Positions 34,228 through 36,430 of a stretch of DNA of 37,648 nt are shown here, piece by piece (the first letter of the stretch is position 1; the number at the start of each line of letters is the position of its first letter). The notes below the pieces were generated by a model. It did no database searches. It was not told the origin of the DNA and was given only the letters and a program-made list of their open reading frames with translations. A program made the position numbers and the translations under genes. The stretch is taken from NCBI GenBank assembly GCA_021199475.1, contig JAJQHZ010000098.1:1-37648 (forward strand). The letters are read 5' to 3'. This DNA comes from Lachnospiraceae bacterium. GTDB lineage: Bacteria; Bacillota; Clostridia; Lachnospirales; Lachnospiraceae.

Positions 34228-35649
34228 TCAAAACCGGAAATACAGAAACGGATTGTACGACGCATCCACCAGCCACGCCACGGACAGCAAAAAGAGCAGG
34301 ACATAAAACAGGCTTCTCGCCGCCAGCATCACCGCATTTCTGTCCGCAAAACGCGCGCAGAACGCGTCTCCCAGCTTTTTCGGAAGTCTGGTGCTTCCCA
34401 GTATCAGAAAAACCAGCAGAACCAGATTGTTCAAAAGCAGATAGATCGTCTCCGTGTTCAAAAGACCAGCGCCATAGCCGCCGAACAGCGCCCCAAAAAA
34501 CGCAAGGCTCTGCGAGAGGTCGCCAAACATAAACAGGTTCCACCCAAGCATCACCAGCACCATGCAGTAAAAATGCTGCAGCACCCCCGGCAGCTTCTCC
34601 AGATAGCGTCCCAGAATATATTTTTCAATCACCAGCAGCACGCCGTAGTAGACACCCCAGGCCACAAAGTTCCAGCTCGCACCGTGCCAGATGCCGGTCA
34701 GCAGCCAGACAATCATCAGATTGCGGATATGGCGGGCCGGCGTGACGCGGTTGCCGCCAAGCGGAATGTACACATACTCGCGAAACCAGGTGCTAAGGGA
34801 AATATGCCATCTGCGCCAGAATTCCGTAATGCTTTTTGACACATAGGGGTAGTTAAAATTCTCCAGAAAGCGGAATCCAAACATATGCCCGAGGCCGATC
34901 GCCATATCCGAGTACGCAGAAAAATCAAAATAGATCTGCAGGGTATAGGCGGCCAGGCCAAGCCAGGCCGTTATCACAGGTACCTCCGAGACGGTCATCG
35001 CGCTGATGGTATCCCACAGCGCTCCCGCATTGTTTGCAAGCAGCACCTTTTTCCCCAGACCGATCAGAAAGCGCTGGATTCCCTGCGCAAATTCCTCCGG
35101 CGTCTCCCGTCTTTGGCGCAGCTGCGCGTCTATGGTCTTGTACTGCACAATCGGGCCAGCGATCAGCTGAGGAAACATGGAAACATATGCCCCATAGGAA
35201 ATCAGATTTTTCTGCACCTGCGCTTCGCCCCGGTATACATCAATCGTGTAGGACATCGTCTGAAAGGTATAAAAAGAAATGCCGATCGGCAGCGCCAGAT
35301 TCAACAGCTGCAGCCGGGCATTTGTCAGTGTATTTACCGTTCCGATGGCAAAATCCGCATATTTAAAAAATCCAAGCAGGGCCAGGCTGATGGTAACCGA
35401 ACCGGCCATGACCCTTCGCGCCGCCTTCTCTCTTCCGGCGCGTTTCATCGCATCCACCGCTCTCCCGCCGGAATAGGAAATCAAAATGGAAGCCAGCATC
35501 AGAAGAATATAGACCGGCTCCCCCCACGCGTAAAACAGCAGACTGAACAGAAGCAGCACAAGATTGCGCCATCCGCGCGGAACCAGGTAATAGAAAAGGA
35601 GCACAGCCGGCAAAAAGCGAAATAAAAACAGCAGACTGCTGAAAACCAT
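34228..35649 (-). CDS. MBOAT-family membrane-bound O-acyltransferase (AlgI/DltB-like)
   Basis: 473 residues, about ten or more membrane segments. The ATG at 35649 has GGAGAG 5 nt upstream, so 23 further in-frame codons are excluded. MBOAT landmarks are RRWHISLSTWFREYVYIPLGGNR (H282) and the catalytic-histidine motif LTGIWHGASWNF (H322), plus FDFSAYSDMAIGLGHMFGF. AlgI-type MBOATs pass acyl groups across the membrane to an exported glycan or wall polymer. It is followed by the DHHW gene and preceded by DUF4358 and SGNH genes, a set I recall as recurrent in Lachnospiraceae. A 207-bp MITE separates it from the upstream gene. Confidence 0.94.
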   Translation of the reverse strand: MVFSSLLFLFRFLPAVLLFYYLVPRGWRNLVLLLFSLLFYAWGEPVYILLMLASILISYSGGRAVDAMKRAGREKAARRVMAGSVTISLALLGFFKYADFAIGTVNTLTNARLQLLNLALPIGISFYTFQTMSYTIDVYRGEAQVQKNLISYGAYVSMFPQLIAGPIVQYKTIDAQLRQRRETPEEFAQGIQRFLIGLGKKVLLANNAGALWDTISAMTVSEVPVITAWLGLAAYTLQIYFDFSAYSDMAIGLGHMFGFRFLENFNYPYVSKSITEFWRRWHISLSTWFREYVYIPLGGNRVTPARHIRNLMIVWLLTGIWHGASWNFVAWGVYYGVLLVIEKYILGRYLEKLPGVLQHFYCMVLVMLGWNLFMFGDLSQSLAFFGALFGGYGAGLLNTETIYLLLNNLVLLVFLILGSTRLPKKLGDAFCARFADRNAVMLAARSLFYVLLFLLSVAWLVDASYNPFLYFRF

Positions 35650-35746
35650 AACTTCTCTCCATTCACGGAAATAACGTAACGCGGTAAGAGTAACGCTTTC
35701 CCTCACTCCTACCCGCACGCTTCGTGATTTTACAGAAAGTACACTC
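35650..35746 (-). other. Upstream region of the MBOAT gene
   Basis: About 97 bp between the MITE and the MBOAT ATG. It contains a repeated GCGTTAC (minus strand, about 35672-35687). I see no convincing promoter, so the MBOAT gene probably depends on read-through across the MITE or on a weak promoter inside it. Confidence 0.35.
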
Positions 35747-35959
35747 TAAGGAACTGTCGCGAAATAACTTACCCATCTTGCACCGCCTAACGCGCGAATC
35801 GCAGACCATAAAATCCTCGACGCTCTACGCTCCGCTTCGGTCGGCGCTAAACGAACGTCCACTGGACGTTCAGCGCCCCGCTGCGCCTACGTTTTTATGG
35901 TCTGTGCTTCACACGTTATCCGGCACAATCTGGGCATGTTATTTTGCGACAGTTCCTAA
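35747..35959. mobile_element. MITE-like 207-bp inverted-repeat element with TAA target duplications
   Basis: The element spans 35750-35956. Its ends are GGAACTGTCGCGAAATAAC and its inverted copy with one mismatch. TAA flanks it directly on both sides (35747-35749 and 35957-35959). The imperfect inverted repeat continues inward for about 67 bp per arm, including a perfect CAGACCATAAAA/TTTTATGGTCTG pair. The centre holds ACGTCCA-CT-GGACGT. No transposase frame fits inside, so it must be mobilised in trans. It lies 3 bp past the DUF4358 stop codon. The IS family that owns these ends was not identified. Confidence 0.85.
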
Positions 35960-35962
35960 CGA

Positions 35963-36430
35963 TCAGAACCCGTAGGATTCCAGAATCTCCTCTGCTCCAT
36001 CCGTATCATCGCAGACACAGAGCACCGTGTAATTCCCCGCGCTCTTAATGATCGCGGTATCCAGCCGGGCCGCTTCGCTCTGATTGTAGGAAGCATAGAG
36101 CGTTGTCTGATTGTCCACGCGTGTCTGCATCATCGACTCCACATTGCTGACATCCTCCGAATCCGCGCTCTCAATCACTGCAATCTCACAAGCCGTCGCA
36201 CCGGAGCTCGCATAAGCGACCGCCGAAGCGACATCCTCCTCATCCAGATAATAAATCGAAGGAATCAAAGATGAGGCCGTCTCACTCAGGTCATCCGATG
36301 TGACTGTCTCCAGCAGCGCCTCCGCCAGTTCAGAGACATCAATGGATACCGCCTCTTCCTTTTTTGAACCGCAGGCCGTCATGGAAAGCATCAGTACCGC
36401 CGCGCAAAAAAATGCCGTTAACTTTTTCAT
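35963..36430 (-). CDS. DUF4358-type lipoprotein
   Basis: 155 residues. A signal peptide ends in the lipobox LSMTACGS, so C20 would be lipidated and the protein held on the outer face of the membrane. The mature part is small, acidic and rich in Ser, Ala and Asp, with SSLIPSIYYLDEEDVASAVAYASSGATACEIAVIES and MMQTRVDNQTTLYASY, as in DUF4358. Function is unknown; members often sit beside SGNH and MBOAT genes in Clostridia, suggesting a part in surface glycan acylation. GGAG lies about 12 nt upstream of the ATG, a long spacing. A MITE begins just past the stop. Confidence 0.88.
   Translation of the reverse strand: MKKLTAFFCAAVLMLSMTACGSKKEEAVSIDVSELAEALLETVTSDDLSETASSLIPSIYYLDEEDVASAVAYASSGATACEIAVIESADSEDVSNVESMMQTRVDNQTTLYASYNQSEAARLDTAIIKSAGNYTVLCVCDDTDGAEEILESYGF

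Follow-up and report, generated by a model that had tools for sequence, protein, structure and literature searches.

In an excerpt of PMC10969869, MITEs are described as elements of less than 500 bp that lack a transposase, have terminal inverted repeats (TIRs) between direct repeats, are dispersed in many copies and give a stably folded transcript. The same excerpt reports double-strand RNA processing for Correia elements and, like that of PMC3733652, describes Rickettsia palindromic elements (RPEs) as palindromic repeats that lie in frame in genes of conserved function. REP and REPIN sequences with RAYT are short, covarying palindromes of high copy number in the excerpts of PMC3116915 and PMC3733652, the former of which also names the small dispersed repeats of Nostoc.

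Here we analyzed a 207-bp element in the genome of a Lachnospiraceae bacterium. The window is the whole 37,648-nt stretch (contig JAJQHZ010000098.1 of GCA_021199475.1) and lies in contig C40 of its 3.8-Mb genome. The element has all of the MITE features listed in the PMC10969869 excerpt. It differs from MITEs in that no related IS with shared ends was found among the ends read in its own genome and in relative G017, in holding a second mobile palindrome, and in that many of its copies have a single arm whose inner end is fixed. Likened by description to the RPEs of those excerpts, this palindrome (hereafter the core) behaves like them, though it is shorter: it is palindromic, folds as a hairpin and occurs in frame in conserved genes. 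However, it is 54 nt long (net 51 bp), compared with about 150 bp for RPEs and a given length range of about 100-150 bp, and it is found in Lachnospiraceae, where it also occupies the loops of other hairpins and MITEs. Relative to the REP and REPIN sequences of the excerpts, the core lacks an association with RAYT and a conserved GTAG or CGTC tag, does not form REPIN pairs and occurs inside genes. No report of the core palindrome in Clostridia or Lachnospiraceae was found in the open-access literature, which leaves most subscription journals outside. The Nostoc repeats are likewise very small and are said to lie inside other repeats and structured RNAs, but they are 20-odd nt long and cyanobacterial.

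A MITE between the DUF4358 and MBOAT genes

The element lies among minus-strand genes for a GDSL/SGNH hydrolase, a DUF4358 protein, an MBOAT protein and a DHHW/AlgX-like protein. Pfam matches of both neighbors bear out its placement between DUF4358 and MBOAT in an earlier note on this DNA. The features are as follows.

34228-35649, minus strand: MBOAT O-acyltransferase gene, lying downstream of the element as transcribed (Pfam PF03062, 108.5 bits)
35660-35746: about 87 bp of extra DNA on the MBOAT side of the MITE, single copy in its own genome and missing from the gap of relative G017
35747-35749: left target-site duplication TAA (sequence)
35750-35768, plus strand: left terminal inverted repeat GGAACTGTCGCGAAATAAC (sequence)
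35750-35823, plus strand: left MITE arm, 74 nt, of which one-armed copies also occur (copy searches)
35824-35877, plus strand: nested 54-nt palindromic element, net +51 bp, standing for the AGC of the empty MITE centre (copy searches, covariation, empty/filled comparison)
35843-35877, plus strand: hairpin of the nested element, GGCGCT-AAAC bulge-GAACGTCCA-C-TGGACGTTC-AGCGCC (covariation; DNA fold -16 kcal/mol, z -4.9)
35878-35956, plus strand: right MITE arm (copy searches)
35938-35956, minus strand: right terminal inverted repeat, one mismatch relative to the left (sequence)
35957-35959: right target-site duplication TAA (sequence)
35963-36430, minus strand: DUF4358 lipoprotein-like gene, upstream of the element (Pfam PF14270, 78.9 bits)

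The inverted-repeat element at 35750-35956 is 207 bp long with 19-bp ends, GGAACTGTCGCGAAATAAC and, read as the reverse complement, GGAACTGTCGCAAAATAAC, which differ at a single position. It is flanked by CTCTAA on the left and TAACGA on the right. The inverted ends with one mismatch and the TAA duplications were as first described, and the reported start 3 bp past the DUF4358 stop also held, the duplication lying 3 bp after the stop codon at 35963-35965. The arms had been given as about 80 percent identical over roughly 67 bp; the length stood and the identity was slightly lower, at 77.6% over 67 bp and 77% over 74-75 bp. Folded as operon-strand RNA, 35747-35959 formed the anticipated long hairpin, at -121 kcal/mol, and 200 dinucleotide shuffles had a mean of -66.5 (z -12.7) with 0 of 200 as good. 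In agreement with the view that the element holds no transposase, none was found among ORFs of at least 80 aa that overlap the 207 bp, the sole one of which (35724-35975, 83 aa) runs opposite to the operon strand and looks spurious.

The element was not confined to this site. The 207-bp query was matched in 38 of 47 genomes of the genus, all drafts. Among the matches listed, the 18-bp MITE end (at most 3 mismatches) occurred 33 times in its own genome compared with 3 for the reversed pattern, and 130 times compared with 4 in G017, the nearest sampled relative. The 156-bp form of the MITE has the TIR GGAACTGTCGCRAAATAAC and a 3-bp TWA duplication. Pairing of ends across all fetched loci yielded 16 pairs at 15 loci, with L090 contributing two. 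An exact TAA or TTA duplication was present at 13 of these 15 full-length loci, and the two without one, L004 and L005, are both in its own genome. Copies measured 156 bp without the middle and 207 bp with it, and two variants measured 160 and 167 bp.

Partial and composite copies were also present. Among 62 classified MITE ends, 26 belonged to one-armed copies (L036, L222, L226, L227, L230, L234, L235, L244, L246, L247 and others); in 10 of the 26, the inner end AGCCCG, which is the MITE centre, was followed by unrelated DNA. At L043, L044 and L221 the end GCAG was followed by a TTA that equals one at the copy's outer end. The MITE arm at L231 contained a third, nested hairpin element (ctagtagaccgtatcgtaa...), and the same sequence lay beside a core in L006. 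Shortened or bulge-less relatives of the core occupied another MITE-arm position at L225, L237 and L245, and two of these appear to have an AT duplication.

We then compared the locus itself in relatives. Thirty MBOAT loci of the genus were read, its own included; 16 of the 29 relatives had no intact DUF4358 gene directly upstream in the stretch. In all 13 same-genus relatives that did (L192-L204), the MITE was absent from the DUF4358-MBOAT gap, which measured, in order, 14, 15, 35, 226, 15, 98, 15, 35, 29, 19, 19, 21 and 19 bp, compared with 313 bp here, and the core was found nowhere in their fetched stretches. L192 and L204 each contain one end-like sequence (at most 4 mismatches), which must lie outside the gap because their gaps are only 14 and 19 bp. 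Locus L111 has a gap equal to that of L202 and is probably from the same genome. The gap of G017 is also without the element. The stretch from MBOAT to the MITE, 97 bp, gave only a self-match in its own genome. The earlier note had called for a copy count and a comparison of this locus, and held that its proposal would fall if there were no other copies and the sequence were always present here. Neither was the case: further copies with the same ends were found dispersed in its own genome and in the genus, and all 13 relatives having that gene order lacked the element in the gap. With a target-site duplication, TIRs, short length without a transposase, dispersed copies and an empty site, the element at 35750-35956 is a MITE.

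An effect of the element on the MBOAT operon, predicted as uncoupling, attenuation or mRNA stabilization, is plausible. The paired RNA in the window probably separates translation of MBOAT from that of DUF4358 and, as with Correia elements, would give double-strand RNA processing a place to act. Between 35550 and 36100, no promoter-like site was seen. Of two terminator-like sites there, one lies inside the start of MBOAT and the other in the element, on the strand opposite the operon; neither of the two is on the operon strand inside the element.

A separately dispersed palindrome at the MITE centre

Matches to the 207-bp query in its own genome fall into three parts, covering query positions 1-74, about 72-129 and 128-207. 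The MITE centre is a separately dispersed palindrome of a different family from the MITE. The claim of a 207-bp MITE was therefore right as to the MITE, with its ends, duplications, copies and absence in relatives, but not as to a single element: a 51-bp palindrome is nested in a 156-bp MITE.

The core has the layout TCTMCGCTCCGCTTC-GGTC-GGCGCT-AAAC-GNNCNTCCA-C-TGGANGNNC-AGCGCC. Its own genome has 21 copies among the matches listed, with 0 for the reversed-pattern control. Of the 47 genus genomes, 23 have the core (control 0 in each), and a family-wide sample of 299 genomes has it in 10, corresponding to 10 of 298 genera, its own included. The set with flanks comprises 100 distinct copies, taken from its own genome and from some of the others (some 60 fetched regions, together with the search loci). 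In 28 distinct cores, the three stem pairs not fixed by the search pattern were Watson-Crick in 84 of 84 cells, compared with a mean of 46.9 and a maximum of 63 in 5000 shuffles. GGTC, the AAAC bulge and the TCCACTGGA tip were near-invariant, a conservation that is partly by construction because the search pattern constrained them (at most 3 mismatches). The fourth base of TCTNC varied, with C in 51, A in 33, T in 15 and G in 1 of the 100 cores.

In the 5 loci searched, L001 included, no Rfam family matched over the element at gathering score. A GA-cis RNA (RF02987, 55.2 bits) lies at L335:79-161, beside a core that sits in a strong hairpin. Tandem or nested core copies were present at L069 and L265. 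At L277 and L286, the sequence beside the core resembles what we take to be a tmRNA 3' end; ARAGORN called no tRNA or tmRNA gene at either locus, and we do not claim a core next to tmRNA.

Host sites of the core in hairpin loops and protein genes

In 21 non-redundant clusters, the true left and right flanks of the core formed longer stems (p = 0.0034) of lower energy (p = 0.00025) than swapped flanks, as judged by 20,000 permutations. Strong flanking stems were found at L335, L064, L307, L065, L071 and L061. In several of the 21 clusters (for example L059, L066, L277, L283, L311 and L312) a flanking stem was missing, indicating that loops are not the only core sites. The loop preference could also partly reflect which hosts tolerate the core.

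When the fetched loci were searched for these flanks with no core between them, empty/filled pairs with a net difference of 51 bp emerged in six host contexts, by our own grouping. At the MITE centre the empty counterpart was a clean 3 nt, AGC. In the other contexts it was TTC (atgagaagaaaaccgc/tcataatc), TTC or CTC (gcaagcg/cttccgataag), GTC (the synthetase site described below), TAA/TCC (gaagcgccccctc/gctcggcgg) and CTG (gaagttcg/ccgcaagcg). Some pairs in non-coding hosts differed by a net 52-53 rather than 51. No clear target duplication was established for the palindrome. Its preference for loops and the small size of the loop it replaces lead us to infer that the core inserts into looped single strands of DNA or RNA.

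Many of the long ORFs that hold the core are antisense or spurious; ten real-looking loci were kept and nine were sent to Pfam. Eight of the nine proteins matched a family: valyl-tRNA synthetase (L264), macro domain (L275), acyl-ACP thioesterase (L263), GalT (L279), helicase (L077), class-III aminotransferase (L320), M32 peptidase (L327) and, just above the cut-off, DUF5717 (L326). L279 is weaker evidence because GalT was matched only downstream of the insert. The protein of L059, common to L298 and relaxase-like by eye, had no Pfam match. In the macro-domain protein, a 44-residue insert (query residues 172-215) falls between chain residues 171 and 173 of 8rsl, and the alignment of the synthetase with 1gax is interrupted between its query residues 483 and 519.

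The synthetase gene was found in three states among 30 loci: 26 empty, 3 with one insert and 1 with nested inserts. The empty loci, its own genome included, have a segment of 46 residues; those of G009, G020 and G016 have 70 residues, with another palindromic insert; and that of G017 has 87 residues, with the core nested in the outer insert and exactly 17 codons added. The core site in the like-looking outer insert of the macro-domain protein differs from that in the synthetase, which argues for separate core insertions. The outer insert itself (GGAAGCGCCCCCTC...CGGCGGCAG...) lies in frame in genes, adds 24 residues in the synthetase (L371, L372 and L373), is also present at L223, L055 and L330, and carries the core at two or more positions.

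Origin of the nested arrangement

We put at roughly 80% the probability that the 156-bp MITE inserted between DUF4358 and MBOAT after the split from the nearest sampled relative, its centre already holding the net 51-bp palindrome. The MITE centre would first have received the palindrome, which occupies hairpin loops, and the MITE would then have carried it along into the DUF4358-MBOAT gap. TIRs together with a duplication of fixed length imply a DDE transposase acting in trans, and the MITE may have moved in this way. Against this reading, neither an autonomous partner for the MITE nor an enzyme for the palindrome was found. The search for a full-length IS with the same ends, proposed in the earlier note, returned copies but not the IS among the 33 ends in its own genome and 100 of the 130 G017 ends listed. 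A 3.2-kb end pair in G017:C12 had no recognizable transposase among the ORFs read by eye. Exact searches of viral contigs gave 0 matches for the core pattern and 0 for the MITE-end pattern, plasmid and phage records gave no blastn match at 1e-5, and 80 named loci held no core (at most 3 mismatches) and no MITE end (at most 2).

More tentatively, and at a little less than even odds, we propose that in the core Clostridia have a mobile palindrome that stands alone and is codon-compatible, a hairpin of net 51 nt (17 codons). It would enter loops in folded DNA or RNA: those of MITEs, of hairpins between genes, of other palindromic elements and, by way of these, genes for essential enzymes. Neither a DDE nor a Y1 enzyme would move it, and selection would act on its length, its open frames and a bulge and tip that proteins can read. 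The palindrome may insert into looped or single-stranded nucleic acid, and its net 17 codons with open frames may let it survive inside genes.

It is unlikely that the core is instead an immobile functional RNA or protein-binding module, held at hairpin tips by selection. Such a module could account for a near-invariant tip and bulge on a covarying stem, but not readily for in-frame presence in unrelated genes with empty orthologues; the tandem or nested copies point to spread as such, and the sole Rfam match, GA-cis in L335, adjoins the core. We consider it just as improbable that a Y1 (RAYT/IS200-like) transposase, reading the bulged hairpin, moves the core as a repeat of the REP type. A bulged, covarying hairpin with a fixed 5' motif does resemble the recognition targets of Y1 enzymes, and its own genome has a 212-aa Y1-like ORF. 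However, of the 23 core-bearing genus genomes 14 have a PF01797 match, as do 11 of the 24 others (Fisher p = 0.39), G010 (100% complete) has 7 cores and no PF01797 match, no core was present in the 2.5 kb examined around the Y1-like ORF, and the GTAG/CGTC tags given in the excerpt of PMC3733652 are not conserved at the core end. With no co-occurrence, Y1/RAYT was rejected as the mover. The ORF (L080, G000:C122:673-999) is single, RAYT-like and just upstream of a comM-looking ORF. That the 207 bp form one MITE family with an ordinary internal sequence, of which short copies are internal deletions, is highly improbable: the centre has one orientation in all 207-bp copies seen, and copy L051 in C37 keeps only the first bases of the centre, a deletion-like footprint, but the 54 nt are found outside the MITE in many hosts and genomes and empty copies show a clean 3-nt AGC at the same centre.

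In-frame palindromic elements are best known from Rickettsia and raise two questions, how they move and why proteins tolerate them. With dozens of species genomes from one gut Lachnospiraceae genus and a 51-bp element, both become testable in free-living bacteria, and the dated-looking empty, single and nested states of one essential gene, together with many empty and filled host loops, help to make them so. Insertions of this kind can be mistaken for protein domains or for long MITEs, and a second class of mobile hairpin can travel inside MITEs.
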